From Clostridia bacterium (lineage in GTDB: Bacteria; Bacillota; Clostridia; Christensenellales; Borkfalkiaceae), in the NCBI GenBank assembly GCA_017545865.1, contig JAFWXO010000029.1, forward strand, positions 1 to 61,321: a stretch of DNA of 61,321 nt, in the 5' to 3' direction. Below are positions 25,558-54,074 of this stretch, one piece after another (within the stretch, counting starts at the first letter, position 1; every line of letters begins with the position of its first letter). A model generated the notes under the pieces. It made no database searches, was not told where the DNA came from, and saw nothing but the letters and a program-made list of their open reading frames with translations. Both the position numbers and the translations under genes were made by a program.

Positions 25558-26178
25558 ATGGAAAATAAACAAATTTCCGAAAGGGTAATTGAAAGACTGC
25601 CAAAGTATTATAGGTACTTAAAAGATTTAAGTAGCAGTCAAATAGAGCGGGTTTCGTCAAAAACCATTTCAACGGCTCTCAATATAACCGCATCGCAAGT
25701 CCGCCAAGACCTTATGCACTTTGGCGGTTTTGGTCAAACGGGAATAGGTTACGACGTTGAGTTTTTAAAATCTGCCATGCAAGAAATTTTAGGGCTTAAC
25801 AAACGCCACACCGCAATCGTTATAGGCGGTGGTCGTATCGGTCAAGCGCTTATTAGTTACAAGGGTTTTGCCGACGAGAACGTTTTCGTTACCGCCGTGT
25901 TTGACGTTGAAACTGAACATTTAAAAACCCTTTCGGGCGTTTCCGTTTTAAACGTTTCGGAACTTGAAAACTATCTATCTCTCAACAAAACGGATATAGC
26001 CATTATTTCCGTTCAGAAAGAGTATGCCGAGCAAATGGCAAAGCGAGTTATTTCCCTTGGCGTTAAATCAATTTGGAATTTCGCCCCTATCGACCTTAAT
26101 TTTGGCGACGGCGTTGTTTGTGAAAACATAAACATGAGCGAAAGTTTAATGCGACTTATTTATAAGAGTTCAAGGTAA
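25558..26178 (+). CDS. rex: Redox-sensing transcriptional repressor Rex
   Basis: A 206-residue NADH/NAD+ sensor. The N-terminal winged helix (VIERLPKYYRYLKDL ... ITASQVRQDLMHFGGFG) is followed by a Rossmann domain with VIGGGRIGQALISY near residue 88. When NADH is low it binds TTGTTAAN4TTAACAA-type sites and represses fermentation and electron-transfer genes. A perfect site of this kind lies upstream of the malate/lactate dehydrogenase at 31.4 kb, making that operon a likely target. Confidence 0.95.
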   Translation: MENKQISERVIERLPKYYRYLKDLSSSQIERVSSKTISTALNITASQVRQDLMHFGGFGQTGIGYDVEFLKSAMQEILGLNKRHTAIVIGGGRIGQALISYKGFADENVFVTAVFDVETEHLKTLSGVSVLNVSELENYLSLNKTDIAIISVQKEYAEQMAKRVISLGVKSIWNFAPIDLNFGDGVVCENINMSESLMRLIYKSSR

Positions 26179-28628: not shown

Positions 28629-28860
28629 CAATATATAAACCGTTTCGGAAAAGAGTAACTTTTTTCCTTAGGCTAAAGAGAGTGGGGTTAGGTGAAAGCC
28701 CACGCCGAAAGTAAAAGTGAAAGTGCGTTCCGTTGTTAAGGGGGATTAACTATCCACGGGTAGCGCCGTTATAGGCTAAACGAGAGTATTTTTGATACTA
28801 AATTAAGGTGGAACCACGCTAACACGTCCTTATGTCTTTGGCATAAGGGCTTTTGTTTTT
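28629..28860 (+). ncRNA. T-box riboswitch, cysteine-specific
   Basis: The leader carries the T-box sequence AAGGTGGAACCACG at 28805-28818, the strongest hallmark. Its UGGA bulge would pair with a UCCA acceptor end, and tRNA-Cys has U at the discriminator position. A UGC (Cys) triplet lies in the probable specifier loop region (GAAAGTGCGTTCC, near 28725). A terminator stem CCTTATG/CATAAGG with a T-rich tail ends it. Uncharged tRNA-Cys should favour antitermination and expression of cysE-cysS. Confidence 0.93.
28828..28860 (+). terminator. T-box regulated terminator
   Basis: Stem CCTTATG...CATAAGG followed by GCTTTTGTTTTTT. It competes with the T-box antiterminator. Confidence 0.85.
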
Positions 28861-31035: not shown

Positions 31036-31286
31036 TTTTAGCCTTGTGGCTAAAAGTGATATGCAAAACAAGTTTTGCGTGATATTTTGACTTGCAGTCA
31101 AAGTGATATTAAATAAATCCACAACTTGCCGTCAGGCAAATATAACTGCCAAGGCAGTTGGCGTTCGCAACTAAAGTTGCTCGGCAACACCGCCGTAGGC
31201 GATATCACTTGCCGTTAGGCAAATATCACAAATCCGTTTACGGATTTATTTAGTTGCCGAATCCCTTGCAGGGGCTCGGCTTTGAG
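31036..31286. repeat. Hairpin array A (stem-diverse, linker-conserved)
   Basis: About ten short hairpins in a row without coding potential: TTTTAGCC/GGCTAAAA, GCAAAAC/GTTTTGC, TTTGAC/GTCAAA, TTGCC/GGCAA, ACTGCC/GGCAGT, GTTGC/GCAAC, TTGCC/GGCAA, AAATCCG/CGGATTT and a final nested stem. They are separated by GTGATAT in the first part and by its reverse complement ATATCAC in the second, so the array contains both orientations. It fills most of the 590-nt gap between cysS and the dehydrogenase. Confidence 0.8.
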
Positions 31287-31368: not shown

Positions 31369-31374
31369 TATAAT
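31369..31374 (+). promoter_or_regulatory. Promoter (-10) of the mdh operon
   Basis: TGT-extended TATAAT, about 100 nt upstream of the dehydrogenase. The -35 is weak. The leader then forms a stem from AGCGG-AAAA-GGG and CCCC-GTTTT-ACCGCT. Confidence 0.6.
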
Positions 31375-31439
31375 AACGTTGTACGTAGCGGAAAAGGGTA
31401 ATTTATGCCCCGTTTTACCGCTTTTGATTTTGTAAAACA

Positions 31440-31457
31440 TTGTTAATTTTTTAACAA
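31440..31457. promoter_or_regulatory. Rex operator
   Basis: TTGTTAATTTTTTAACAA, a perfect 18-bp palindrome identical to the clostridial Rex consensus TTGTTAAN4TTAACAA. It lies 19 nt before the dehydrogenase start and downstream of the visible -10, so Rex would act as a roadblock or on a closer promoter. Confidence 0.88.
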
Positions 31458-31476
31458 ATAAAAGCAGGAGAATATT

Positions 31477-32427
31477 ATGAAAAGAAAAATCACAATTATC
31501 GGCGCAGGCGCAGTAGGTTCTACTATCGGTTATCTTTTAGTTGCTCAAGGCACGGCATCTGAAGTAGTGTTTATTGACGTTAACAATGATAAGGCGCTTG
31601 GCGAAGCAATGGATATTTATCAAGCAACTCCGTTTCTAAACCCCGCAATCGTTAGAGCAGGTACTTATGAAGACGCTAAGGGTTCGGATATCGTTATTAT
31701 CACGTCTGGCGTGGCAAGAAAGCCCGGTCAAACGAGAATTGACCTTGCTCAAATCAACGTTAATATCATCAAGAGCATTGCTCCTCAAATCACAGCGGTT
31801 TGCCCCGATTCTTTATACGTTATCGTTGCTAACCCCGTTGACGTTTTGACTTATACTTTCCACAAGGTTACAAATATTCCCGCAAACAGAATTATCGGTT
31901 CGGGTACTAGCCTTGATACTGCAAGGCTTAGAACGAAGCTTTCTGAAATTTATAAAGTTTCTCCCTTGCAAGTAGATGCGGACGTTTTGGGTGAACATGG
32001 TGACACTTCTTTCGTTCCTTGGTCTAAAGTTAAAATCGCAGGCGTTAATATCGACGAGTACGACAAGGTTATCACCAACCCTGAAATGAAGGTTGAACCT
32101 TACGATAAAGAAGACGTTGCTGAATATATCAGAAAGTCGGGCGGTATTATCATTTCGAGAAAGGGCGCAACTTACAACGGCGTTGCCGCAGCGGTTGCTT
32201 ACATTTGCAAGTGCTTATATTCGGGCGTTGATACCGTCGTTTGCGTTTCCGTTTTATTAAAAGGCGAATACGGTATTGAAGACGTTTGCATTTCAATCCC
32301 TTGTGTTCTTGGAACTGAAGGTATCAAAACAACCCTTACTCCCACTTTAACTAAGGAAGAAACTGAAAAACTCGTTGCATCTGCTAACGCTATGAAGGAA
32401 GTTATTTCCGCCGTAAATTGTAAGTAG
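31477..32427 (+). CDS. Malate dehydrogenase-like member of the LDH family
   Basis: A 316-residue NAD-dependent 2-hydroxyacid dehydrogenase. GAGAVGST (residues 9-16) binds NAD. GSGTSLDTARLR and LGEHGDTSFVPWS resemble L-lactate dehydrogenases. Yet the specificity loop reads GVARKPGQTR, with Arg at residue 81 where lactate enzymes have Gln and malate enzymes have Arg. Together with fumarase and fumarate reductase downstream, this favours oxaloacetate-to-malate reduction. A lactate dehydrogenase cannot be excluded. It is controlled by a Rex box and has an AGGAG site. Confidence 0.82.
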   Translation: MKRKITIIGAGAVGSTIGYLLVAQGTASEVVFIDVNNDKALGEAMDIYQATPFLNPAIVRAGTYEDAKGSDIVIITSGVARKPGQTRIDLAQINVNIIKSIAPQITAVCPDSLYVIVANPVDVLTYTFHKVTNIPANRIIGSGTSLDTARLRTKLSEIYKVSPLQVDADVLGEHGDTSFVPWSKVKIAGVNIDEYDKVITNPEMKVEPYDKEDVAEYIRKSGGIIISRKGATYNGVAAAVAYICKCLYSGVDTVVCVSVLLKGEYGIEDVCISIPCVLGTEGIKTTLTPTLTKEETEKLVASANAMKEVISAVNCK

Positions 32428-32430
32428 ACC

Positions 32431-32582
32431 TTTTAGCCTCTGGCTAAAAATACCACTTTACGCTTCGCGTAAAATATAACTTGCCGACAGGCAAATACCA
32501 CTTACCACAAGGTAAATACCACTTTACGCTCTGCGTAAAATCTCACTTACCGCAAGGTAAATACCACTTGCCGTAAGGCAAA
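32431..32582. repeat. Hairpin array B
   Basis: Seven hairpins between mdh and fumC: TTTTAGCC/GGCTAAAA, TTTACGC/GCGTAAA, TTGCC/GGCAA, TTACC/GGTAA, TTTACGC/GCGTAAA, TTACC/GGTAA, TTGCC/GGCAA. Each is followed by a 7-nt linker: ATACCAC, ATATAAC, ATACCAC, ATACCAC, ATCTCAC, ATACCAC. Hairpins are 14 or 17 nt, so units are 21 or 24 nt. No coding potential. Confidence 0.92.
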
Positions 32583-32596
32583 TCAAAGGAGTTACT

Positions 32597-33962
32597 ATGG
32601 AATATCGTATTGAAAAAGACACGATGGGCGAAATGCAAGTCCCTGCGGATAGGTATTGGGCAGCCCAAACTCAAAGAAGTTATCAAAACTTCCGCATCGG
32701 CGGAGAAGTAATGCCACGCGAAATCACTCACGCTTTCGGCATACTTAAAAAGGCGGCGGCTTACGCTAACAATCGCCTTGGAAAACTTGATAATGAAAAA
32801 CTTACCGCTATATCTCAAGCGTGTGACGAAGTTATTTCGGGCAGTTTGAACGACCATTTCCCCCCTCGTTGTTTGGCAAACTGGCTCAGGCACTCAATCT
32901 AACATGAACGCCAACGAAGTTATCGCAAACCGCGGTAATGAAATCGCAGGCAAAAAACTTCTTCACCCCAACGACGATATCAATAAGAGTCAATCGAGTA
33001 ACGATACTTTCCCAACGGCTATGCACATTGCGGCGGTTATCGCAATCGAAGATAAACTTTTCCCTGAAATCGACGCGCTCATTGAAGTTTTTAAACGTTT
33101 AGAAAAGGAAAACGAAGGAATCGTTAAGAGTGGTAGAACTCACCTTCAAGACGCTGTTCCCGTAAGTTTCTCTCAAGAAATCAGCGGTTGGAGAAATATG
33201 CTCGAAAAAACTAAGGGCATGCTTGAACTTTCTCTCCCCGGTCTTAAAGAACTTGCGCTCGGCGGTACGGCGGTAGGCACGGGCTTAAACGCTCCCAAGG
33301 GTTTTGACGTTGCCGTTGCCGAAGAGGTTTCCCGCCTTACTGGAAAAACTTTCAAGACTGCTGAAAACAAATTCCACGCTTTAACCGCAAAAGACGAAAT
33401 CGTGTTTGCTCACGGCGCGCTCAAAGCGCTTGCTTGCGACCTTATGAAGATTGCAAACGACGTTAGGTGGTTATCTTCAGGTCCTCGTTGCGGTCTTGGT
33501 GAAATCTTTATTCCTGAAAACGAACCCGGCTCGTCTATAATGCCTGGTAAAGTTAACCCGACTCAATGCGAATCGATGACTATGGTTGCAGTTCAAGTTA
33601 TGGGTAACGACGCGGCAGTTGGCTTTGCATCGTCGCAAGGCAATTTTGAACTTAACGTGTTCATGCCCGTTATCATTTATAACTTCTTGCAATCGGCAAG
33701 GCTTTTAGCAGACGGTATTCGTTCGTTCAACTTAAACTGCGTTTCGGGCATTAGAGCAAACAAGGAAAAAATGAACCACAACCTTTACAACTCACTTATG
33801 CTCGTTACCGCGCTTAACCCCTATATCGGTTACGAAAACGCGGCAAAGACTGCTAAACTTGCTCACAAAGAAAACATAAGCTTAAAAGAAGCGTGCGTAT
33901 CGCTCGGTTTCTTATCGGCTGAAGAATTTGATAAAGTGTTCAAACCTGAACAAATGGTGTGA
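32597..33962 (+). CDS. fumC: Class II fumarase, interrupted by a +1 frameshift in a C6 run
   Basis: Two reading frames together give a full-length 454-residue fumarase that interconverts malate and fumarate. The first part (to codon ~88, ending GSLNDHFP) and the second (from [12 protein letters not shown]) match the enzyme exactly if one C is removed from the C6 tract at 32860-32865. The lost stretch then reads [13 protein letters not shown] in the proper frame. The signature [15 protein letters not shown] and the C-terminal PEQMV identify fumarase rather than aspartase. The extra C may be a sequencing error, a pseudogene mutation or a phase-variable tract. hdrB follows after 2 nt. Confidence 0.9.
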
Positions 33963-33964
33963 TT

Positions 33965-34747
33965 ATGAAATTTTGTTATTATCCGGGTTGTACCCTTAGA
34001 ACTAAAGCAAAACAATTAGATATCTACGCAAGAAAATGCCTTGAAAAATTAGGCGTTGACTTTGAAGAGATTAAAGAGTGGCAATGTTGCGGAGCGGTTT
34101 ACCCCGTTTCTAAAGACGAAGTTGCTACTAAACTTTCAGCAGTTAGAACTTTAGCAAGCGCTAAAGAACAAGGCGGAAAACTCCTTACCTTATGTTCTGC
34201 TTGCCACCACGTTTTAAAAAGAGTTAACTGCGATATGAAAAACGATGCAAACATCCGTTTAAAAGCAAACAACTATCTTGCTCTCGATGAAGAATACGTT
34301 GGCGAAACGGACGTTGTTCATTTCCTTGAACTTTTAAGAGATTACGTTGGCTTTGATAAAATTAAAGAAGCGGTGGTTAACCCCTTGAAAGGTCAAAAAA
34401 TCGGCGCGTACTACGGTTGTTTACTCCTTCGCCCAAGCGAAACTTTGGCGTTCGACAACCCCGAAAATCCGAGAATCATTGAAGATTTCATTTCGGCAAT
34501 CGGAGCAACGCCTGTAAATTACGCGTTCAAGAACGAGTGCTGTGGCGCGTACGTTTCCACCACTCAACAAGACTTAGCCGTTAAAAAGAGCCACAAGGTA
34601 ACCGATTCTGCAAAGGCAGCGGGCGCTGAAAAACTCGTTACGGCTTGCCCCTTATGTATGTATAATCTTACCGAAAATGGTAACGGCGAAGTTCCCGTAT
34701 ATTATTTTACCGAACTTCTTGCTGAAGCGCTCGGCGTAAAGGAGTAA
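33965..34747 (+). CDS. hdrB: Heterodisulfide reductase subunit B-like protein
   Basis: A 260-residue protein with two CCG domains. The first has GCT, WQCCGAVY and LCSACHH; the second GCL, ECCGAYV and CPLCMYN. These cysteines ligate the noncubane [4Fe-4S] clusters that form the catalytic site of HdrB in methanogens. No membrane span is visible. In this organism, which has no sign of methanogenesis, it may act on another disulfide or simply relay electrons. First of the hdr genes, translationally close to fumC and hdrC. Confidence 0.88.
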   Translation: MKFCYYPGCTLRTKAKQLDIYARKCLEKLGVDFEEIKEWQCCGAVYPVSKDEVATKLSAVRTLASAKEQGGKLLTLCSACHHVLKRVNCDMKNDANIRLKANNYLALDEEYVGETDVVHFLELLRDYVGFDKIKEAVVNPLKGQKIGAYYGCLLLRPSETLAFDNPENPRIIEDFISAIGATPVNYAFKNECCGAYVSTTQQDLAVKKSHKVTDSAKAAGAEKLVTACPLCMYNLTENGNGEVPVYYFTELLAEALGVKE

Positions 34748-34750
34748 GAT

Positions 34751-35137
34751 ATGGATAGAAAAGAACAAGCAAAACTTATAAGAGAAAGAAGTGGAACGGA
34801 CGTTAGAAAATGTATGAAATGCGGTAAGTGTTCGGGTAGATGCCCCGCTTACGCTGAAATGGATATCAAACCCCATCAGTTCGTTTCCTATATAGAAAAA
34901 GGCGAAGTTGAAAAACTTTTAGAAAGCAAATCGTTATACACTTGTTTAAGTTGCTTTGCGTGTGTTGAAAGATGCCCCCGTGGCGTTGCTCCCGCAAACG
35001 TGATTGAAGCCGTTCGCCAAGAAGTTATCAGGGCGCAAGGCGGAAATAAAGTTCAAGCGGAAAATATCCCCGCTATCGTTGACGAAGCAATTCCGCAACA
35101 ACTTCTCGTAAGTATGTTCAGAAAATTCAATAAGTAA
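34751..35137 (+). CDS. hdrC: Heterodisulfide reductase subunit C-like ferredoxin
   Basis: A 128-residue iron-sulfur protein with two [4Fe-4S] motifs, CMKCGKCSGRCP (about 18-29) and CLSCFACVERCP (about 63-74). This is the standard HdrC layout: it carries electrons between HdrA and HdrB. It follows hdrB by 3 nt and precedes hdrA by 13 nt. Soluble; no transmembrane segment. Confidence 0.88.
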   Translation: MDRKEQAKLIRERSGTDVRKCMKCGKCSGRCPAYAEMDIKPHQFVSYIEKGEVEKLLESKSLYTCLSCFACVERCPRGVAPANVIEAVRQEVIRAQGGNKVQAENIPAIVDEAIPQQLLVSMFRKFNK

Positions 35138-35150
35138 AAGGAAGAATATA

Positions 35151-37142
35151 ATGCAAAAGATTGGTGTATTTGTGTGTTGGTGCGGTAGCAATATCGCAGC
35201 AACCGTAGACGTTAAAAAAGTTGCGGAAGTTTTAAAAGCCGAACCCGGCGTTGTTATTTCCGAAAACTATCAATACATGTGTTCTGAAAACGGCCAAGCG
35301 CTTATCCGCAACGCCATTAAAGAACACGGCTTAACGGGTATCGTAGTATGTTCTTGTTCTCCAAGAATGCACGAAGCAACCTTTAGAAAGACTGCTGAAA
35401 GCGCAGGTCTTAACCCCTATATGGTTGAAATCGCTAATATCCGTGAACAATGCTCTTGGATACATAAAGATATTGAAGAGGCAACCGAAAAGGCTATCAT
35501 CTTAGGTAGAAGCGCAATCGCTAAGTTAAAACTTAACGCTCCGCTCACTTCCGGTGAAAGCGCGGTTGTTAAAAGAGCGCTCGTTATCGGCGGTGGTATT
35601 GCAGGTATTCAATCTGCTCTCGATATTGCCGAAGCGGGTTACGAAGTTGATATCGTTGAAAGCGCGCCGACTATCGGCGGTAACATGGCGAAACTCGATA
35701 AGACTTTCCCCACTCTCGACTGCGCGGCTTGTATTTTAACGCCGAAAATGGTTGATTGCGCTCAAAACGAAAATATCGACATTATGACTTTTAGTGAAAT
35801 CGAATCGGTTAAAGGTTTCGTTGGTAACTTTAAAGTTCAAATTAGAAGAAAGGCTCGTTTCGTTGACGAAAAGAAGTGTACGGGTTGTGGCGTATGTATG
35901 CAAAAGTGCCCGTCAAAGAAAGGCAAAAACGAGTTCAATATGGGGCTTAACAATCGCCCTGCAATCTATATTCCGTTTGCTCAAGCGATCCCCAACGTTG
36001 CAATCATCGACCCCGAACAATGCTTAAAACTCAAAAACGGCAAGTGCGGTCTTTGCGCTATGCAATGCCAAGTTAACGCTATCGACTATACTCAAAAAGA
36101 CGAGATTATCGAAAGGGAATACGGCGCTATCGTAGTTGCAACCGGTTATAAGCCCATTTCACTTGAAAACTTCAACGAGTATGGTTACGACACTTATAAA
36201 GACGTTGTTACTTCGCTTGAACTTGAAAGACTTATGAACGCAGCAGGCCCGAGTGACGGTCACTTAGTTCGCCCCTCCGACCATAAAGAACCCAAGGTTA
36301 TCACCTTTATTCAATGCGTTGGTTCAAGAGATACGTCTGGTTGCGGTAAGCCGTACTGCAGTAAGATTTGCTGTATGTACACTGCAAAACACGCAATGCT
36401 TATTCGTGAAAAATACCCTAACACCGAAGTTCACGTATTCTATATCGACGTGAGAACGCCTGGTAAGAACTACGACGAGTTCTTCCGTAGAGCAGTTGAA
36501 CAATACGGCGTTGACTATATCAAGGGTATGGTTGGTAAAGTTTACGAAGAAAACGGCAAACTTATGGTTCAAGGTTCTGACCTTATAAACAATGAACAAG
36601 TGGTTATCCCTTCAGACTTAGTAGTTCTTGCAGCGGCAATCGAACCCAACCCGTCGGTTAGAAAGATTGCAACGATGGTAACTGCAAGTATCGATACCAA
36701 CAACTTCTTAACCGAAGCGCACGCAAAACTTCGCCCAGTAGAAAGCCCGACGGCAGGTATTTTCTTATCGGGTGTTTGCCAAGGACCTAAGGATATTCCC
36801 GAAACGGTTTCTCAAGCAAGCGCTTGCGCGGCTAAGGTAGTTGGCTTATTATCTAAAGACAAACTTAAATGTAACGCTTGCGTTTCTCACAGTGACGAAA
36901 TGCTTTGTACGGGTTGTTCCGTATGCGCGAACGTTTGTCCTTACGGCGCTATTACTTACGTTGATAAAGAATTTAGAATCGGCGGTGGTAAAACCGAACT
37001 TAGAAGAGTTGCATCAGTTAACGAAGCGGTATGTCAAGGTTGTGGCGCATGTACGGTTGCTTGTCCTTCCGGCGCTATGGACCTTAAGGGATTTAGCAAC
37101 AAACAAATTATGGCGGAGGTAGACGCGATATGCAAGAGATGA
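35151..37142 (+). CDS. hdrA: Heterodisulfide reductase subunit A-like flavoprotein
   Basis: A 663-residue FAD and iron-sulfur protein. The N-terminal FVCWCGSNIAATVD segment is typical of HdrA. The FAD Rossmann motif GGGIAGIQSALDIAEAGYEV starts near 146. [4Fe-4S] motifs are CTGCGVCMQKCP (about 243), CLKLKNGKCGLCAMQC, and C-terminal CTGCSVCANVCP and CQGCGACTVACP. HdrA flavin is the site of electron bifurcation in characterised complexes. Combined with MvhD, HdrBC and an NAD(P)H-binding subunit, it should couple NADH oxidation to ferredoxin and a second acceptor. Confidence 0.92.
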   Translation: MQKIGVFVCWCGSNIAATVDVKKVAEVLKAEPGVVISENYQYMCSENGQALIRNAIKEHGLTGIVVCSCSPRMHEATFRKTAESAGLNPYMVEIANIREQCSWIHKDIEEATEKAIILGRSAIAKLKLNAPLTSGESAVVKRALVIGGGIAGIQSALDIAEAGYEVDIVESAPTIGGNMAKLDKTFPTLDCAACILTPKMVDCAQNENIDIMTFSEIESVKGFVGNFKVQIRRKARFVDEKKCTGCGVCMQKCPSKKGKNEFNMGLNNRPAIYIPFAQAIPNVAIIDPEQCLKLKNGKCGLCAMQCQVNAIDYTQKDEIIEREYGAIVVATGYKPISLENFNEYGYDTYKDVVTSLELERLMNAAGPSDGHLVRPSDHKEPKVITFIQCVGSRDTSGCGKPYCSKICCMYTAKHAMLIREKYPNTEVHVFYIDVRTPGKNYDEFFRRAVEQYGVDYIKGMVGKVYEENGKLMVQGSDLINNEQVVIPSDLVVLAAAIEPNPSVRKIATMVTASIDTNNFLTEAHAKLRPVESPTAGIFLSGVCQGPKDIPETVSQASACAAKVVGLLSKDKLKCNACVSHSDEMLCTGCSVCANVCPYGAITYVDKEFRIGGGKTELRRVASVNEAVCQGCGACTVACPSGAMDLKGFSNKQIMAEVDAICKR

Positions 37143-37570
37143 ATAACGAAAAGAAACCTTTAATCGTTGCGTTCTGTTGTAACTGGTGTAGTTACGCGGG
37201 CGCTGACCTTGCAGGCTCGTCAAGACTTTCTTACCCTGCAGACGTAAAGATTATTAGAGTTCCCTGCTCGTGCAGAGTTAACCCTATGTTTATTTTAAAA
37301 GCTTTCCAAAGGGGAGCAGACGGCGTTATTATTTGTGGTTGCCACCCCGGTGACTGCCACTATACGACCGGTAACTATTACGCTAGAAGAAGAATGAGTT
37401 TACTTTTCAGTATGCTCGACTATCTCGGCATTGAAAGAGAAAGAACTCGCGTTGAGTGGGTTTCGGCAGCGGAAGGCGCAAAATTCTCCGCCGTTATGAA
37501 CGACTTTGCGGGTAAAATTGCTGAGCTTGGCGAAAACAAGAGATTGGAGGATTTAAGATGCAAAGATTAA
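37130..37570 (+). CDS. MvhD/FlxD-like iron-sulfur subunit
   Basis: A 146-residue protein of the PF02662 family, with CCNWCSYAGADLAG at the start, VPCSCRVNP and ICGCHPGDCHYTTGN later. It holds a [2Fe-2S] cluster and passes electrons from a partner dehydrogenase to HdrA. It overlaps hdrA by 13 nt and the next gene by 13 nt, which shows a tightly coupled unit. No NiFe hydrogenase genes are nearby, so its partner is probably the flavoprotein downstream. Confidence 0.9.
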   Translation: MQEMNNEKKPLIVAFCCNWCSYAGADLAGSSRLSYPADVKIIRVPCSCRVNPMFILKAFQRGADGVIICGCHPGDCHYTTGNYYARRRMSLLFSMLDYLGIERERTRVEWVSAAEGAKFSAVMNDFAGKIAELGENKRLEDLRCKD

Positions 37571-38517
37571 AAACCGCTATGATTGAAAAGGCAACCGCGC
37601 TTTTAACTTCTGGCGAAGTATCAAAAGTTCTCGGCTGGAAGAAAGGCGAACTCGGCTTTGACGTTGAGCCTGCCGTATTTACGAGCGTTGACAGTTTAGT
37701 TGATTTTACTTACGATGCGTTCTGCGGCGCAAACCTTTCCAAGTATTTAGTAGAAGAAAGCAAAAAAGAAGGCAAGATTTTAGTTTTCTTAAAACCTTGC
37801 GACAGTTATAGTTTTAACCAACTTATTAAAGAACACAGAATTAAAAAGGAAAACGTTTATACCGTTGGTATTGAGTGCCAAGGCAAAGTAGATCCTTACA
37901 AACTCAAAGAAAACGGCATTGAATTCGTAACCGACGCTAGCGAAACGGTTGATACCGTTACCGTTAACGGCAAAGAATTCAAAAAGGAAGAAATTATCCT
38001 TGGAAAGTGCTTAACTTGCACCAAGAAACTCCTTTCTTATGACGACGTTATTTCCTTTAACGAAAAGCGCGAACCTTCTCTTGACCGTTTTGAAATGGTT
38101 AAAAAGTTAGAAGCGATGACCGCAGACGAAAGATATGCTTTTTGGAAAGACCAACTTTCCAACTGTATCCGTTGTAACGCTTGTAGAAACGTTTGCCCCG
38201 CTTGTACTTGTACTAAATGCGTTTTCGATAACGACAATTCGGGTATAGCAAGCAAGGCAAATAGCGATAGTTTTGAAGAAAAGATGTTCCACATCATAAG
38301 AGCGTTCCACGTTGCAGGCAGATGTACCGACTGTGGCGAGTGTTCAAGAGTATGCCCCCAGCATATCCCCCTTCACTTACTCAACAGAAAGTTTATCAGC
38401 GATATTGATAGACTTTACGGTGAATACCAAGCGGGTGAAGACACCGAGTCCAAAGGTCCGCTTACGAACTACACCACGGGCGACGTTGACCCGAGTGACG
38501 TTTTCGGAGGTAAGTAA
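37558..38517 (+). CDS. Iron-sulfur protein, FlxC/FrhB-like
   Basis: A 319-residue protein. The first ~150 residues resemble the F420 hydrogenase/dehydrogenase beta region (LKPCDSYSFNQLIKEHRIKK, GIECQGKVD). The middle has CLTCTKK. The C-terminal half carries CIRCNACRNVCPACTCTKC and CTDCGECSRVCPQ, two [4Fe-4S] clusters. Position and domain type fit the Flx (Flox) electron-transfer modules that accompany hdrABC in anaerobes. Its exact role in the chain is an inference. Confidence 0.78.
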   Translation: MQRLKTAMIEKATALLTSGEVSKVLGWKKGELGFDVEPAVFTSVDSLVDFTYDAFCGANLSKYLVEESKKEGKILVFLKPCDSYSFNQLIKEHRIKKENVYTVGIECQGKVDPYKLKENGIEFVTDASETVDTVTVNGKEFKKEEIILGKCLTCTKKLLSYDDVISFNEKREPSLDRFEMVKKLEAMTADERYAFWKDQLSNCIRCNACRNVCPACTCTKCVFDNDNSGIASKANSDSFEEKMFHIIRAFHVAGRCTDCGECSRVCPQHIPLHLLNRKFISDIDRLYGEYQAGEDTESKGPLTNYTTGDVDPSDVFGGK

Positions 38518-38520
38518 GAT

Positions 38521-39540
38521 ATGAAAAAGATTGCTTTATCAAATATCGACTTATTATATAAGGAAATCGCGGGCGCGCAAGAACTTTACCTTCCCGTAAA
38601 AGTTGCAGGCGCAACCAACTTCAAAAAGTTTGAAGACGGCGTTGAAGTGGATATCAAATCTTTACAAACGGTAAAATCTGCAAAAGATTTATTCTTCCCG
38701 CAAAGTGAAGATATGATGGAATTTAAAACTTCGGGTAAATCTATCGAAGTTATCGACGCAAGAAAGAAAGCCGAGCCTTTCGTTTTATTCGGCGTTCGCG
38801 GATGTGACCTTAAGAGTTTTGAAGTTTTAGACAAAGTGTTCCTTGCCGAACCCGTTGACACAATGTATCAAGCAAAGCGCGAAGCGGTAACCGTTGTAAC
38901 TCTTGCTTGTAACAACCCCGAAACTTCGTGTTTTTGTAAGGTATTCGGCGTAGACGCGTCAAATCCTAAAGGTGACGTTCAAGCCACTATCGTTAGCGAC
39001 GAAATGCACTTTGAAGCGCTTACTGAAAAGGGCGAAAAACTCTTATCGAGTTTGAAATGTTTAGAAGATTGCGAAGGTAAGGGCGTTGAAGAAGAAAAGG
39101 CTCAAATCAAAGAAAAAATCGACGCGTTGCCGTTTGTAAACCTTGACCTAACTAACTTCAAAGGCGAAAACCTTATGGAACTTTTCAACAGACCCGAGTG
39201 GGAAGAACTCTCCAAGGCTTGCTTAGGTTGCGGTACTTGCACTTTCGTATGTCCGACCTGTCAATGCTTTGATATTAGAGATTTCCAAACCAACGCAGGC
39301 GTTAAGAGATTTAGATGCTGGGACTCTTGTATGTATTCCGAATTCACCAAAATGGCGGCGGAAAACCCAAGAAAGAACCAAATGCAAAGATATCGCCAAA
39401 GATTTATGCACAAACTTTGCTACTTCCCGTCGAATAACGACGGCGAGTACGGTTGCGTAGGTTGCGGAAGATGCGTTAAGAAATGCCCGCAATCACTCAA
39501 TATCGTAAAAGTAATTAAAAAACTCGGAGGTAACAAATAA
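38521..39540 (+). CDS. AsrA/FlxB-like 4Fe-4S dicluster protein
   Basis: A 339-residue protein related to anaerobic sulfite reductase subunit A. LFGVRGCDLKSFEVLD near residue 98 and CNNPETSCFCKVF near 138 are family marks. The C-terminus has CLGCGTCTFVCPTCQC and CVGCGRCVKKCP, two [4Fe-4S] motifs. It abuts the FAD/NAD gene (stop and start overlap at TAATG). No sulfite reductase catalytic subunit is present, so it is read as part of an electron input module, not as sulfite reductase. Confidence 0.8.
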   Translation: MKKIALSNIDLLYKEIAGAQELYLPVKVAGATNFKKFEDGVEVDIKSLQTVKSAKDLFFPQSEDMMEFKTSGKSIEVIDARKKAEPFVLFGVRGCDLKSFEVLDKVFLAEPVDTMYQAKREAVTVVTLACNNPETSCFCKVFGVDASNPKGDVQATIVSDEMHFEALTEKGEKLLSSLKCLEDCEGKGVEEEKAQIKEKIDALPFVNLDLTNFKGENLMELFNRPEWEELSKACLGCGTCTFVCPTCQCFDIRDFQTNAGVKRFRCWDSCMYSEFTKMAAENPRKNQMQRYRQRFMHKLCYFPSNNDGEYGCVGCGRCVKKCPQSLNIVKVIKKLGGNK

Positions 39541-40367
39541 TGACTAACGAAGCGTTAATTCCCGTAGTCGGCGTGATTACGGATATCAGAAGAGACACCC
39601 CCGACGTTAAGACTTTCAGGGTGGTAACTCCCGACGGTAAAAAAGCATTTGAACATATGCCCGGTCAATGCGCAATGCTTTCTATCCCCGGCGTTGGCGA
39701 AGCGATGTTCTCTATAACTTCATCTCCAACGAACACCGAATTTATGGAATTTTCTATAAAGAAATGCGGATGCGTAACTTCTTGGCTTCACTCTTGTGAA
39801 GTAGGTCAAATGGTAACGATTCGCGGACCTTACGGCAACGGTTTCCCCGTAACCAAAGATTTCAAGGGTAAAAACTTACTCTTTATCGCAGGTGGTATCG
39901 GCTTAGCGCCACTCCGTTCGGTTATCAATTACGTTAGAGCAAACAGAGCGGACTACGGCACGGTAGATATCGTTTACGGTTCTCGTTCAATGGACGATCT
40001 CGTTGACTTTAAAGAAATTCAAGAAGAGTGGAAGAACGAAAAGGACTTCAACGTTTACTTGACTATCGACCGCCCCCAAGAAGGTTGGGACGGGCACGTT
40101 GGTTTCGTTCCTGCATACGTTAAGGAAGTTAATATCCCCACCGACAGAACGGCAGTTCTTTGCGGTCCGCCGATAATGATTAAGTTCACGCTCCAAGCCC
40201 TTTTGGAACTTGGCTTTGAAAAGACTCAAGTATTTACCACGCTTGAATTTAGAATGAAATGCGGTATCGGTAAATGCGGTCGTTGTAACGTTGGTGATAA
40301 ATACATTTGTAAAGACGGTCCTGTATTCCGTATGGACCAACTCGAAGAACTTCCTTCAGAGTACTAA
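39540..40367 (+). CDS. NAD(P)H-dependent FAD oxidoreductase, AsrB/FlxA-like
   Basis: A 275-residue ferredoxin-NADP reductase-type protein. The FAD-binding barrel comes first (GQCAMLSIPGVGEAMFSITS). The NAD-binding half has LFIAGGIGLAPLRSVI near residue 118 and VLCGPPIMIK. A C-terminal [2Fe-2S] loop CGIGKCGRCNVGDKYIC is like PyrK and AsrB. It should be the entry point of electrons from NADH into the Flx-Hdr complex. The frdB gene follows after 32 nt, within the same operon. Confidence 0.88.
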   Translation: MTNEALIPVVGVITDIRRDTPDVKTFRVVTPDGKKAFEHMPGQCAMLSIPGVGEAMFSITSSPTNTEFMEFSIKKCGCVTSWLHSCEVGQMVTIRGPYGNGFPVTKDFKGKNLLFIAGGIGLAPLRSVINYVRANRADYGTVDIVYGSRSMDDLVDFKEIQEEWKNEKDFNVYLTIDRPQEGWDGHVGFVPAYVKEVNIPTDRTAVLCGPPIMIKFTLQALLELGFEKTQVFTTLEFRMKCGIGKCGRCNVGDKYICKDGPVFRMDQLEELPSEY

Positions 40368-40399
40368 TAAACGGAAATAAGGACTAGGAGAAAAAAATT

Positions 40400-41074
40400 A
40401 TGGAAAAAATGGTAAACGTTTACTTTTTCGGTAAAAAATACGAAGTGCCCGCAAGCCTTACTATTATGAAGGCTATGGAGTACGCCGGTTATCAACTTGT
40501 TCGCGGTTGCGGTTGCCGTAACGGTTTCTGTGGCGCGTGCGCAACCCTTTATAGAATAAAGGGCAAAACTGAACTTAAAACTTGTCTTGCTTGTCAACAA
40601 CAAGTAGAAGAAGGAATGTACGTTGCAACTCTTCCTTTCTTCCCGCTCGTTAAACAAGTATACGATATTCAAAAAGTTAAACCCACCGAGCAAATTATGA
40701 TGCAACTTTATCCTGAAATTTATAGTTGTATCGGATGTAACGCTTGTACTAAGGCTTGCCCGCAAGAACTTAAAACTATGCAATACATCGCTTACGCTCA
40801 ACGCGGTGAATACGAAAAGTGCGCTGAAGAGTCTTTCGACTGTATTATGTGCGGTCTTTGCTCGTCAAGATGCCCGGCCGGCATTTCTCATCCGCAAGTT
40901 GCAATTTTAGCAAGAAGACTTTACGGCAAGTATATCGCTCCCGAGTGCAAACACCTTTTAGACAGGGTTGCCGAAATTAACGAAGGCAAGCACGACGAAA
41001 GCATGAGCGAAATTATGAACAAATCTCTCGAAGAACAAAAAGCGCTTTACAATTCGAGAGATATTGAAAAGTAA
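40400..41074 (+). CDS. frdB: Fumarate reductase iron-sulfur subunit, soluble type
   Basis: A 224-residue protein. The N-terminal plant-type [2Fe-2S] domain has CGCRNGFCGAC and CLAC. The C-terminal domain has CIGCNACTKACP and CIMCGLCSSRCP, both complete CxxCxxC motifs, so two [4Fe-4S] clusters rather than the [4Fe-4S]/[3Fe-4S] pair of quinone-linked enzymes. No membrane anchor gene follows. This suggests a cytoplasmic enzyme fed by an iron-sulfur partner rather than by quinol. Confidence 0.85.
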   Translation: MEKMVNVYFFGKKYEVPASLTIMKAMEYAGYQLVRGCGCRNGFCGACATLYRIKGKTELKTCLACQQQVEEGMYVATLPFFPLVKQVYDIQKVKPTEQIMMQLYPEIYSCIGCNACTKACPQELKTMQYIAYAQRGEYEKCAEESFDCIMCGLCSSRCPAGISHPQVAILARRLYGKYIAPECKHLLDRVAEINEGKHDESMSEIMNKSLEEQKALYNSRDIEK

Positions 41075-41089
41075 GGGGAGGGTTAAACA

Positions 41090-42697
41090 ATGTATTCTTA
41101 CACTCAAGAACAACTTGATTCTATCAAGAAAGTAGAAGCGACAAGACAAGAAAGACTTTCTAATCTTCACGCAAGAATGACCGCTGAACAAAAGGATGCG
41201 GTTTTAAAAGAATTCCACCCCGACTACATTGAAGGCGCTTACGAAACTTTAAAAGTAGGCCCGAACAAAGGCGAAAAAGTTCTTCACGAACTCGCTGACC
41301 TTTTACAAGGTAAGTCAAGGCTTGAACCCAAGAAAATCGACCTTAAAAACCCCGACTATGACGTTGACGTTTTAGTTATCGGCGGCGGTGGCGCAGGTTC
41401 TTCCGCAGCGATTACCGCTCACGCTAACGGCGCTAACGTTATGATCGTTACAAAACTTAGAATAGGCGACGCTAACTCTATGATGGCTGAAGGTGGTATT
41501 CAAGCGGCTGATAAGCCTAACGATAGCCCCGCTCAGCACTATCTCGATGCGTTTGGTGGCGGTCACTTCGCGGCTAAACCTTGCTTGCTTGAAAAACTCG
41601 TTAAAGAAGCGCCCGATGCTATTCGTTGGCTTTCTGATCTCGGCGTTATGTTCGATAAATATGAAAACGGCGAAATGGTTACCACTCACGGTGGCGGTAC
41701 TTCAAGAAAGAGAATGCACGCTTGTAAAGACTACTCTGGCGCTGAAATCATGAGAACTCTTCGCGATGAAGTTATGAACAGAGGTATCCCCGTTGTTGAC
41801 TTTACCGCAGCGATTGAAATTATCAAAGATAACGAAGGTAAAGCAGCAGGCGCAGTTTTACAAAATATGGAAACTGGCGAAATCTTAGTTGCTAAGGCTA
41901 AAACCGTTATTATCGCAACTGGTGGCGCTGGTAGACTTCACTATCAAGGTTTCCCAACTTCTAACCACTACGGCGCAACTGCCGACGGTTTAGTTCTTGC
42001 TTACCGTGCAGGCGCAAAACTCTTATACGCTGATACTTTACAATATCACCCGACTGGCGCTGCTGAACCCACTCAAATCTACGGCGCGCTAGTTACTGAA
42101 AAAGTTCGTTCACTCGGCGCTCAACTCGTTAATAAAGACGGTGAAGCGTTCGTATACTCTCTCGAAACGCGTGACGTTACTGCGTCTACCATTATTAGAG
42201 AATGTAAAGGTCGTGGCAACGGCGTTAAGACTACCGACGGTGAAGGCGTTTGGCTCGATACTCCGATGATTGATATTATCGGTGGCGAAGGCACTATTGA
42301 AAAACGTATTCCCGCAATGATGAGAATGTTCGGTAAATACGGCATTGATATTAGAAAAGAACCCATCTTAATTTACCCCACGCTTCACTATCAAAACGGC
42401 GGTATCGATATCAATGCTGACGGTCAAACCACTATGGTTGAAAACTTATACGTTGCAGGCGAAGCAGTCGGAGGTATTCACGGCAGAAACCGCCTTATGG
42501 GTAACTCTTTACTTGATATTATCGTATTCGGTAGAAACGCTGGTAAGTATGCAAGCGAAAAGGCAAAATCTGTTAAAGTTGGCAAACTTACTTTATCTCA
42601 CGTTAACGATTTCAACAAAGAACTCAAAGAAGCAGGCGTAAACACCGGTAAGTTATCTCCGCAATTATTACCTAACTACAAACGTCAAGACATGTAA
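41090..42697 (+). CDS. frdA: Fumarate reductase flavoprotein subunit, soluble type
   Basis: A 535-residue FAD enzyme predicted to reduce fumarate to succinate. VIGGGGAGSSAAITAHANGA binds FAD near residue 95. Catalytic-region motifs include HGGGTSRKRMHACKD, LQYHPTGA, SLETRDVTASTI (active-site Arg) and HGRNRLMGNSLLD. The position of the FAD-linking histidine of membrane FrdA (HTVAAEGG) reads NSMMAEGG here, so FAD should be non-covalent, as in thiol:fumarate reductase or L-aspartate oxidase. No nadA or nadC is nearby, which argues against aspartate oxidase. Confidence 0.87.
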   Translation: MYSYTQEQLDSIKKVEATRQERLSNLHARMTAEQKDAVLKEFHPDYIEGAYETLKVGPNKGEKVLHELADLLQGKSRLEPKKIDLKNPDYDVDVLVIGGGGAGSSAAITAHANGANVMIVTKLRIGDANSMMAEGGIQAADKPNDSPAQHYLDAFGGGHFAAKPCLLEKLVKEAPDAIRWLSDLGVMFDKYENGEMVTTHGGGTSRKRMHACKDYSGAEIMRTLRDEVMNRGIPVVDFTAAIEIIKDNEGKAAGAVLQNMETGEILVAKAKTVIIATGGAGRLHYQGFPTSNHYGATADGLVLAYRAGAKLLYADTLQYHPTGAAEPTQIYGALVTEKVRSLGAQLVNKDGEAFVYSLETRDVTASTIIRECKGRGNGVKTTDGEGVWLDTPMIDIIGGEGTIEKRIPAMMRMFGKYGIDIRKEPILIYPTLHYQNGGIDINADGQTTMVENLYVAGEAVGGIHGRNRLMGNSLLDIIVFGRNAGKYASEKAKSVKVGKLTLSHVNDFNKELKEAGVNTGKLSPQLLPNYKRQDM

Positions 42698-42731
42698 TTT
42701 TAATCCGTTATAAACTTCGCAAATCGGCTAT

Positions 42732-42923
42732 TTAGCCAAAGATTCCGTACAAGGAGTACGCGTACTTTGGCTATAATATCCGCCTTGCTTGTTTCTAACG
42801 TCTTAAAATGATTTTTATAGAAAAGTTAGTTTTTCGCGAGCCTTGTCTTGCTTGTTTCTAACGTCTTATATCATTTTTATTAAACTTAAACTTTAGCGTT
42901 CGACGGAAACGGCGAACGCTAAA
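42732..42923 (+). repeat. Hairpins and a 22-bp direct repeat between frdA and exporter
   Basis: The gap holds a perfect stem TAGCCAAAG/CTTTGGCTA with an inner CGTAC/GTACG stem (42732-42772). It also has two direct copies of CTTGCTTGTTTCTAACGTCT (42785 and 42847, about 63 nt apart), each followed by a T-rich tail. A perfect 11-bp stem TTTAGCGTTCG/CGAACGCTAAA (42892-42923) lies just before the ribosome site. No gene is present. They may adjust expression of the exporter relative to the reductase. Confidence 0.75.
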
Positions 42924-42952
42924 CTAATGCAAAATATTTCTTGGAGAAAATT

Positions 42953-44305
42953 ATGGAAAATCAAAACAAAAAGAGCCTTAAATGGCTTTGGATAACTATT
43001 GCAATAGTTATCGTTGGCGCTCTTGCAGGTTGGATTATCTTCAACGCGGTTAAAGCGGGCACGGTAACCAAAGTAGTAGGTTTTTCTTCTACTTTAGTTC
43101 TCTTTTGCCTTATCTTTATTATCGTTGCGCTCGGTTATTTACTCGGCGGTATCACGATTAAAGGCGTTAACTTAGGAACTGCAGGCGTATTCTTAGTTGC
43201 AATACTTTTCGGTTTCTTATGCACCTTAAATTTCGGCAACGTTCCCCTTCTTGGTAAATTCCACGTTCAAGCGGGCGATGCAGTCGTTGAAACGATGGGT
43301 GGTTCTATTCAAAACTTAGGTCTTATAATGTTCGTTGGCTCTGTTGGTCTTATCGCAGGCCCAAGTTTCTTTAAAAACCTTAAAAAGAACTTTAAAACCT
43401 ATATCGTTCTCGGCGCGGTAATCATTTTATCGGCAACGCTCGTTGCAGTTCTTTTCACTCTTGCAACGGGTTATAGTTCAGAATTCTGGGCAGGTATTTT
43501 ATCAGGCGCTCTCACCACAACCCCGGGTTTCTCCGCTGCGCAAGAAGCGGCAGGTAAGGGCAGTGAGTTCTACAACCAAATTTCTTTAGGTCACGCTATC
43601 GCATACCCCTTCGGTGTTGTTGGCGTTGTATTATTCGTTCAACTTATTCCCAAGTTCTTAAAATCTAACATGGATAAGGAAAGAGAACTTTTAAAAATCG
43701 GCGCGGAAGAAGAAGCAAAAGATTATTCGGGCTTATTCGAGTGCGAACCCTTCGGCTTAGTTCCCGTTGCTTTAACCGTTGTTTTAGGCTTACTCTTAGG
43801 CTCTATTAAAATTCCCCTTTTCGGCGGTTCGGCTTTCAGCCTTGGAACTACCGGTGGCGTTCTTATCATGGGCTTAATCTTAGGTCACTTTGGTAAAATC
43901 GGCAAACTTTCTCTCCAAGTTCCCGAAAGCACTTTAAAACTTTTAAGAGAATTCGGTTTAATGTTATTCTTGCTTGGCGCAGGCTTTGAAGGTGGCGTAA
44001 ACTTAGTTAGCGAACTTTCTAAACCCGGCACGGGCGCAATGTTCGTTGTTTGGGGCTTCGTTGGTGGCGCTCTCATGACAACCGTTCCCATGCTCGTTGG
44101 TTTCATCCTTGCAAAGTTCGTTATGAGAATTCCTCTTTTGAACGCTCTTGGCTCAATCACCGGCGGTATGACTTCAACTCCCGCTCTCGGAACGCTTATC
44201 AACACCGCTAAGACTGAAGACGTTGCTTCCGCTTACGCGTCCACCTATCCTATCGCTTTAGTTCTCGTGGTGCTTGCTTGTCAACTTATGATTACATTTA
44301 TTTAA
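42953..44305 (+). CDS. AspT/YidE-family exchanger, probable succinate exporter
   Basis: A 450-residue membrane protein of the aspartate:alanine exchanger family with about ten spans in two halves. The repeated motifs GALTTTPGFSAA and GGMTSTPALGTL are the family signature. There are no RCK/TrkA_C domains between the halves, unlike many YidE/YbjL proteins. Family members include AspT and the succinate exporter SucE of corynebacteria. Downstream of a fumarate reductase operon, succinate export or a C4-dicarboxylate exchange is the best guess. I use the ATG after GGAGA rather than an upstream TTG. Confidence 0.85.
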   Translation: MENQNKKSLKWLWITIAIVIVGALAGWIIFNAVKAGTVTKVVGFSSTLVLFCLIFIIVALGYLLGGITIKGVNLGTAGVFLVAILFGFLCTLNFGNVPLLGKFHVQAGDAVVETMGGSIQNLGLIMFVGSVGLIAGPSFFKNLKKNFKTYIVLGAVIILSATLVAVLFTLATGYSSEFWAGILSGALTTTPGFSAAQEAAGKGSEFYNQISLGHAIAYPFGVVGVVLFVQLIPKFLKSNMDKERELLKIGAEEEAKDYSGLFECEPFGLVPVALTVVLGLLLGSIKIPLFGGSAFSLGTTGGVLIMGLILGHFGKIGKLSLQVPESTLKLLREFGLMLFLLGAGFEGGVNLVSELSKPGTGAMFVVWGFVGGALMTTVPMLVGFILAKFVMRIPLLNALGSITGGMTSTPALGTLINTAKTEDVASAYASTYPIALVLVVLACQLMITFI

Positions 44306-44322
44306 AAACGTAAACAAAATAG

Positions 44323-44353
44323 AAAAAGTGTGCTTAAAATAAGCACACTTTTT
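44323..44353 (+). terminator. Terminator after the exporter
   Basis: AAAAAGTGTGCTT and AAGCACACTTTTT arms with an AAAAT loop. Confidence 0.92.
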
Positions 44354-53972: not shown

Positions 53973-54041
53973 TTTACGCTTTGCGTAAAATGTCACTTGC
54001 CGTCAGGCAAATACCACTTTACGCTCTGCGTAAAATCTCAC
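53973..54041. repeat. Hairpin array C
   Basis: TTTACGC/GCGTAAA, linker ATGTCAC, TTGCC/GGCAA, linker ATACCAC, TTTACGC/GCGTAAA, linker ATCTCAC, then a terminator stem. Stems and linkers match array B although the two lie over 20 kb apart. Confidence 0.9.
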
Positions 54042-54042
54042 T

Positions 54043-54074
54043 AAAAAAGCGTAGGCTATCCTACGCTTTTTTTA
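54043..54074. terminator. Bidirectional terminator after NagB-like pair
   Basis: AAAAAAGCGTAG and CTACGCTTTTTT arms with a short loop; it is the last stem of hairpin array C. Confidence 0.9.

Follow-up and report, generated by a model that had tools for sequence, protein, structure and literature searches.

A soluble fumarate reductase operon joined to an HdrABC-Flx module in Clostridia: a probable bifurcating NADH:fumarate/ferredoxin oxidoreductase

How does a fumarate reductase encoded without a membrane anchor obtain its electrons, and could the reaction also deliver reduced ferredoxin? The question is raised by a locus in a 61,321-nucleotide stretch of DNA from an uncultured gut organism, Clostridia bacterium (hereafter the window, which is contig C32 in a genome of 1.59 Mb assembled into 33 contigs), where genes for malate dehydrogenase, fumarase, a seven-subunit HdrABC-FlxABCD module, the fumarate reductase subunits FrdB and FrdA and an AspT-family transporter follow one another on one strand. 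The genes, their cluster and active-site motifs, their linkage and a Rex-type site are all present in the sequence, and on these grounds the operon probably encodes one soluble, electron-bifurcating NADH:fumarate/ferredoxin oxidoreductase together with the reductive branch from oxaloacetate to succinate. The listed completeness of the genome is 94.85%, with contamination at 4.41%, so gene absences reported below are no proof. The operon reads as follows.

31477-32427, + strand: mdh, lactate/malate dehydrogenase family (Pfam Ldh_1_N, Ldh_1_C)
32597-33962, + strand: fumC, class II fumarase, in two open reading frames (ORFs) owing to a frameshift at 32860-32865
33959-34747, + strand: hdrB, two CCG domains, that is, two noncubane cluster sites
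34751-35137, + strand: hdrC, two 4Fe-4S clusters
35151-37142, + strand: hdrA, FAD and 4Fe-4S protein, presumed bifurcating site
37130-37570, + strand: flxD/mvhD (Pfam FlpD, 187.6 bits)
37558-38517, + strand: flxC, ferredoxin-like, its C-terminal part resembling FdhB of Hdr-formate dehydrogenase complexes
38521-39540, + strand: flxB, sulfhydrogenase-beta-like
39540-40367, + strand: flxA, FAD/NAD(P)H-binding and 2Fe-2S, sulfhydrogenase-gamma-like
40400-41074, + strand: frdB, 2Fe-2S domain and two CxxCxxCxxxC motifs, no CCG domain
41090-42697, + strand: frdA, fumarate reductase flavoprotein with Asn in place of the FAD-linking His, an N-terminal extension of about 89 residues and no SdhA C-terminal domain
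42941-44305, + strand: AspT-family transporter, possible succinate exporter (Pfam Asp-Al_Ex, 215.7 bits)
44323-44353, + strand: terminator-like hairpin of 14 pairs from a consensus scan, closing the unit

The gene order that an earlier note had read from this DNA, mdh-fumC-hdrBCA-flxDCBA-frdBA-exporter on one strand, is borne out by the ORFs and family matches. Its description of overlaps or short gaps throughout holds from hdrB through frdA, where neighboring genes overlap or lie at most 32 nucleotides (nt) apart, and fails at the mdh-fumC and frdA-transporter junctions, with intergenic gaps of 169 and 243 nt. The HdrABC-Flx module is complete as claimed, the genes for HdrA, B and C standing next to those for FlxA, B, C and D (seven subunits in all), and neither a frdC/frdD membrane anchor gene (ORFs, Pfam) nor a hydrogenase gene (Pfam matches) lies inside the operon. 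A hydrogenase-linked Hdr is thereby ruled out for this operon, the NiFe hydrogenase large subunit family PF00346 being unmatched in the whole genome as well (E <= 1e-10).

This adjacency is conserved within the class. Besides the genome itself, 21 of 60 relatives encode a close FrdA homolog (72-96% identity); any FrdA match at E <= 0.001 occurs in 40 of the 61 panel genomes, own included, the remaining weak matches being distant relatives such as aspartate-oxidase-like proteins at no more than 37% identity. Among 391 class genomes, 54 (own included) encode FrdA at E <= 1e-90 and 57 encode HdrA at E <= 1e-100, and comparison of the two lists gives 53 with both. HdrA occurs without FrdA in genomes G082, G092, G097 and G125, and FrdA without HdrA in G131 alone, where the contig ends inside the operon (L193). 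The link between the two proteins within the class is near absolute. The nine-gene order hdrB-hdrC-hdrA-flxD-flxC-flxB-flxA-frdB-frdA is complete in 19/20 loci from the relatives, 61/80 loci from a scan of genome contigs (genome_contigs) and 40/53 class loci, sets that overlap in genomes, and this order is far beyond chance. Of the 33 loci without the full order, 32 lie on contigs that extend too short a distance upstream (at most 6.3 kb) and one (L211) is truly rearranged, with frdBA preceding hdrBCA-flxDC and a tartrate-dehydratase/class I fumarase-type pair before frdB. In the genome_contigs scan 330 stretches matched the search pattern and 305 of these encode some FrdA relative; the best 80 of the 305 were kept, with FrdA at 75-96% identity over nearly the whole protein. 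Many titles in this set mention ruminant gut samples, and the best 80 include two named strains, Eubacterium coprostanoligenes ATCC 51222 (L136) and Merdimmobilis hominis An559 (L133). The earlier note had asked whether the hdrABC-flx-frdAB adjacency is conserved or FrdAB stands mostly apart from hdr and flx in relatives. Inside the class, gene order and the 53 shared genomes show the genes together, which supports a single functional unit; outside the class they often stand apart, as described below.

The flanking genes of the unit vary in a way that also favors a succinate branch. Of the 145 loci that offer 2 kb or more of room, 115 have a relative of the AspT-family transporter downstream of frdA; a DASS carrier takes its place in L209, and the fumarase is replaced by an unrelated type in L210 and L211.

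The Hdr-Flx proteins carry features that fit bifurcation from NADH. Residue counts here and below come from alignments of proteins with at least 45% identity and 85% coverage after removal of duplicates and length outliers, which reduced 152 FrdA, 150 FrdB, 121 HdrB and 124 HdrA sequences to 135, 134, 107 and 111 rows including the window. FlxA matches NAD-, FAD- and 2Fe-2S-binding families, FlxB resembles the sulfhydrogenase beta subunit (9nez_B), and FlxC, chiefly in its C-terminal part, matches FdhB from solved complexes of Hdr with formate dehydrogenase; the FlxA and other Flx family matches agree with the proposal that NADH is the electron input. HdrA, with its FAD and ferredoxin domains present, aligns over residues 3-659 with the bifurcating HdrA of 5odc_A, and its Lys413, kept in 111/111 rows, aligns with Lys409 of that structure, a position that we take to lie beside the bifurcating flavin. 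HdrB, the sole CCG protein of the operon (Pfam), has two complete CCG cluster sites, and of its ten cluster cysteines nine are kept in 107/107 rows and Cys11 in 106, with one gap. All seven subunits of the FlxABCD-HdrABC NADH dehydrogenase/heterodisulfide reductase that Ramos and colleagues reportedly described in 2015 are thus found in the window, but here the module is joined to frdBA, and its high-potential acceptor is probably fumarate and not a disulfide.

In FrdA, residues His320, Glu337, Arg361, His433 and Arg468, mapped by alignment to 1nek_A and taken by us to be active-site residues, are invariant (135/135 rows), and the position of the FAD-linking histidine is Asn129 in 134/135 rows, with His in L151. 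Escherichia coli mutants of the FAD-linking histidine keep fumarate reduction and lose succinate oxidation. The predicted reductive direction, from fumarate to succinate, is supported by the fumarase, by a GTP-PEPCK present in the genome (ATP-PEPCK was not found in the genome search) and by the lost FAD-linking His. That the complex instead runs in reverse, oxidizing succinate with reduced ferredoxin to yield NADH, is very improbable; bifurcating enzymes are reversible in principle, but the histidine is gone from nearly every row, and mdh, fumarase, GTP-PEPCK and exporter suit reduction.

FrdAB is, by its predicted anatomy, neither a thiol:fumarate reductase (Tfr) nor a quinol:fumarate reductase. 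FrdB carries two CxxCxxCxxxC motifs with all eight cysteines in 134/134 rows and a 2Fe-2S region in which 132 of the 134 rows have Cys37 and 124 have Cys62, and no CCG domain was matched in it by Pfam; FrdA has about 89 residues ahead of its FAD domain, and Pfam and NCBIfam searches matched no SdhA C-terminal domain in it. Among NCBIfam models TfrA scores best with FrdA, but at 335.7 bits, far under the cut-off of 718 and covering model positions 6-427 of 546, and the window FrdA differs in its N-terminal extension and missing C-terminal domain. The TfrB model (cut-off 385 bits) matches the 2Fe-2S part of FrdB at 42.5 bits, over model positions 19-94 of 488, and through its C-terminal part matches HdrB at 43 bits; FrdB lacks the C-terminal HdrB-like CCG part found in TfrB. 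Membership in TfrAB is ruled out by the missing CCG domain and the sub-cut-off scores. The 8-methylmenaquinol:fumarate reductase (MFR, SdhABE) has an HdrB-like subunit next to SdhB, and the window HdrB does resemble SdhE, but its 138.2 bits against a cut-off of 500 rule out membership, and no MenD was found in this genome. With quinol:fumarate reductase FrdABCD, FrdA shares the FAD-domain fold and active-site residues, but the missing anchor genes, Asn129 in place of the FAD-linking His and the missing 3Fe-4S-type motif rule that family out too. The earlier note's claim that no quinone pool is needed agrees with the operon's lack of an anchor gene and with a search that covered MenD but not the futalosine route, in which none of the 61 panel genomes gave a MenD match over cut-off (weak matches occur in 28, none of them this one).

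HdrB keeps both CCG sites while FrdB has no CCG domain, and this division favors HdrB as the donor to FrdB. In Tfr and MFR an HdrB-like part serves the FrdB/SdhB-like part, and both the TfrB and the MFR SdhE models match window HdrB under their cut-offs. That Flx-Hdr passes its electrons to a disulfide (of a protein or a small molecule), with the resulting thiols then reducing fumarate as in methanogen Tfr, is quite improbable. The CCG domain is the thiol-oxidizing part of TfrB, and FrdB has none, nor is there a disulfide-carrier gene in the operon; on the other side, HdrB has lost neither of its disulfide-type cluster sites, FrdA scores best with TfrA among NCBIfam models, and a similar idea with a DsrC-like protein has been published for tubeworm symbionts (available text of PMC11636981).

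From homology we infer bifurcation, ferredoxin as the second acceptor and an HdrB-to-FrdB step. In the bifurcating scheme NADH would reduce FlxA, and electrons would reach the FAD of HdrA by way of FlxB, FlxC and FlxD; from that FAD one electron of each pair would travel via the HdrA ferredoxin domain to ferredoxin and the other via HdrC and HdrB to FrdB and FrdA, reducing fumarate to succinate for a net 2 NADH + Fd(ox) + fumarate → 2 NAD+ + Fd(red) + succinate. Succinate, the presumed cargo, may then leave by the AspT-family carrier. The potentials given in the available part of PMC5861303 (fumarate +33 mV, NAD -320 mV) leave room for ferredoxin reduction.

Regulation points the same way, through two further features.

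25558-26178, + strand: rex, redox-sensing repressor (NCBIfam NF003990, 242.7 bits, cut-off 233)
31440-31457, + strand: Rex-operator-like palindrome TTGTTAA-N4-TTAACAA, perfect match, 19 nt before mdh

The rex gene, the sole PF06971 match in the genome, lies 5.3 kb upstream of mdh with other genes between and is not adjacent to the operon. With the clostridial Rex operator consensus quoted in the accessible portion of PMC8457756, a scan of the window at up to two mismatches found 2 sites where 2.05 are expected, the mdh site alone being perfect. Allowing up to one mismatch within 400 nt, a site precedes 22 of 108 operon heads, with 4 elsewhere in 2.0 Mb. After deduplication 19/99 heads carry one (60 dinucleotide shuffles averaged 0.25, with at most 1), and all six same-genus heads in view within the relatives' set have a perfect site. 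Rex homologs at 28-38% identity to window Rex, some partial, occur in 20 of 153 fetched loci, some of them copies of one genome, always on the operon strand and either 39-225 nt upstream of the operon (9 loci) or 126-1460 nt downstream of frdA (11). The operator before mdh together with the 19/99 heads points to control by NADH, and the predicted operator and the rex gene point to membership of the operon in the Rex regulon, in which case repression by Rex, if it binds here, would be lifted at high NADH.

Several results weigh against the bifurcating reading. No Rnf was found in the genome, the best RnfC-like match scoring 193 bits with a cut-off of 245.95. A Rex-like site at this stringency was not found in 80 of 99 distinct operon heads, so either Rex control is not universal or the motif differs. 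Outside the class, 19 of 39 loci have FrdBA without hdr in view, and FrdAB is thus evidently able to use other donors. A coevolution signal favoring HdrB-FrdB was not obtained, this pair ranking 32nd of 36. Finally, no biochemical test of a Flx-Hdr-Frd complex was found in the searched portions of the open-licence PubMed Central (PMC) literature, which also yielded nothing pertinent on succinate or fumarate reductase in E. coprostanoligenes.

The Rnf result bears on the fate of ferredoxin. The RnfC-like match was rejected as Rnf and read as PduS, being below cut-off with microcompartment-type neighbors; by eye, the genes around it (L213:4643-16874, contig C29) are a glycyl-radical enzyme, an activase and microcompartment/propanediol-type genes. 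RnfC over cut-off is present in 6/22 panel genomes with close FrdA versus 25/39 without, and in this panel, uncorrected for kinship, operon and Rnf tend not to co-occur. PF00346 is matched in 2 of the 61 panel genomes. The earlier note's claim that the enzyme conserves energy is weakened, since no Rnf or NiFe large-subunit gene was found and a gain through Rnf is unsupported in this genome. The genome does encode one group B [FeFe] hydrogenase (585.8 bits, cut-off 450), a type that re-oxidizes ferredoxin in gut Bacteroides according to the available text of PMC12578642; for pyruvate:ferredoxin oxidoreductase a single 413-residue frame covers model positions 2-403 of 1167, below cut-off. With no Rnf and no NiFe large subunit found, reduced ferredoxin more likely ends as H2 through the group B enzyme or in biosynthesis. 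By the same findings, extra reduced ferredoxin would have no evident outlet in respiration, which would suit a plain NADH:fumarate reductase, with electrons passing from Flx through Hdr to FrdAB and no ferredoxin coupling, and Rex control fits such simple recycling of NAD+. We nevertheless regard it as unlikely, because HdrA retains its ferredoxin domains and the lysine aligned with 5odc Lys409, and because seven extra subunits would be costly where the reaction needs none.

The loci outside the class show what else FrdBA may be wired to. A phylum search found FrdA in 39 of 398 genomes; the 38 besides the window's own are all labeled outside the class (54-64% identity) and gave, as best matches plus a second copy in G532, 39 loci, all with Asn at the FAD-linking position. 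Near frdA, 16 have hdrA and flxD, 4 have hdrC-hdrB only, and 19 have no hdr in view, some of these with short upstream flanks (L235, L231, L252). Neighbors in some hdr-less loci include malic enzyme (L246, L258), pyruvate carboxylase (L233) and NapC-type cytochromes (L230, L261). At L230:9354-11691 an FMN-binding ferredoxin-like protein and two NapC/cytochrome c7-like proteins are encoded immediately upstream of frdBA; here the same family of FrdBA may be connected to cytochromes. The L227 group showed neither flxA nor flxB in the stretch; at L227:7451-10678 a 1076-residue fused HdrA-like/pyridine-nucleotide oxidoreductase is encoded beside hdrCBA and flxD, upstream of frdBA; a second HdrA-like region is also seen in L228, L229, L234, L236, L239, L244 and L248. 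Might this fused protein belong to another module that feeds the same fumarate reductase? These arrangements mark the fumarate reductase as modular, with more than one possible source of electrons; in the window's class it is locked to Flx-Hdr. In loci L238, L242, L249 and L253, hdrC-hdrB stands ahead of frdB-frdA with no hdrA in view, and this hdrCB-frdBA unit supports electron flow from HdrB to FrdB.

Coevolution was measured as mutual information with average product correction over 36 protein pairs, using 102 rows (113 loci held all nine proteins, 101 of them distinct, plus the window; effective number 74). The top pairs were HdrC-HdrA, HdrA-FlxD and FrdB-FrdA; the controls were weak too, the known HdrB-HdrC contact coming 16th and the likely FlxB-FlxA contact 25th. 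The count gives no support for an HdrB-FrdB contact and has low power. FrdB scores higher with FlxD, FlxA and HdrA than with HdrB, which we read as noise from strongly conserved proteins, with a real signal possible. Taken as signal, the FlxD and FlxA scores would, like the 19 hdr-less loci, suit FrdAB being fed directly by ferredoxin, NADH or Flx, with Flx-Hdr merely co-regulated. We hold this to be quite unlikely, as the linkage within the class is near absolute, hdrC-hdrB directly precedes frdB-frdA in four loci, and even the rearranged L211 keeps the gene set together.

Returning to the bifurcating reading, a more specific version can be offered tentatively, as a possibility. HdrB may be an electron wire into FrdB and not a disulfide reductase, so that a nine-subunit soluble complex would make reduced ferredoxin at the expense of fumarate; hdrCB-frdBA may be a transferable cassette that has been joined to Flx, to other Hdr inputs or to no such input; and Rex may turn the operon on as NADH accumulates.

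The bifurcation idea is itself already in print. In the part of PMC7282089 available, coupling of fumarate reduction to ferredoxin is proposed for the 'succinate operon' of the cultured relative Pseudoclostridium thermosuccinogenes, an operon described as about 4-fold induced under CO2 limitation, not significantly for every subunit; the system in the window is a member of this proposed kind. Its locus tags (RS03365, RS03360-30, RS03325-20 and RS03315) give the order fumarase, flx/hdr, two frd and transporter, which matches the order in the window as compared by tag order and not by sequence, Flx-Hdr amounting to seven tags if tags step by five. That operon differs in that mdh is not named in it in the text available, and it belongs to another organism and habitat. 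The accessible passages of PMC6315080 and PMC11636981 suggest that Flx-Hdr feeds a thiol-fumarate reductase in tubeworm symbionts. In the rearranged reductive tricarboxylic acid cluster of tubeworm symbionts and Thioflavicoccus, tfrAB lies among flxABCD-hdrABC and direct electron transfer is suggested; compared by description, it differs as a carbon fixation cluster with korABCD and the TfrAB type. The searched portions of the earlier literature do not mention how widely the operon is spread, its connection with Rex, an FrdAB anatomy unlike that of Tfr, or the hdrCB-frdBA unit.

Some features of the window stand beside this argument. The earlier note treated fumC as a single gene; the identity stands, and what it overlooked is the split into two ORFs (101 and 352 residues) by a frameshift at a six-C run. 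Both fumC parts share one frame, 306 nt apart, in all six same-genus loci in view, which rules out a programmed frameshift, and a sequencing error or a strain mutation is likelier on this comparison. Intergenic clusters of short, perfect hairpins with AT-rich linkers (arms of 7, e.g. TTTACGC..GCGTAAA) occur at 31037-31162, at 32432-32541, in the mdh-fumC gap, and at 53973-54067. A pyruvate phosphate dikinase family protein is encoded at 58355-60985, possibly for phosphoenolpyruvate metabolism around the succinate branch. A T-box leader at 28633-28834 (101.8 bits) lies upstream of two + strand ORFs that, named by eye, resemble serine acetyltransferase and cysteinyl-tRNA synthetase.

The two named strains, E. 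coprostanoligenes ATCC 51222 and M. hominis An559, make the proposal testable. If it is true, many uncultured gut Clostridia would make succinate by a quinone-free enzyme that also yields reduced ferredoxin, and hence H2, the redox and energy balances for succinate and H2 in gut and rumen would change, and HdrB would gain a role beyond disulfide chemistry.

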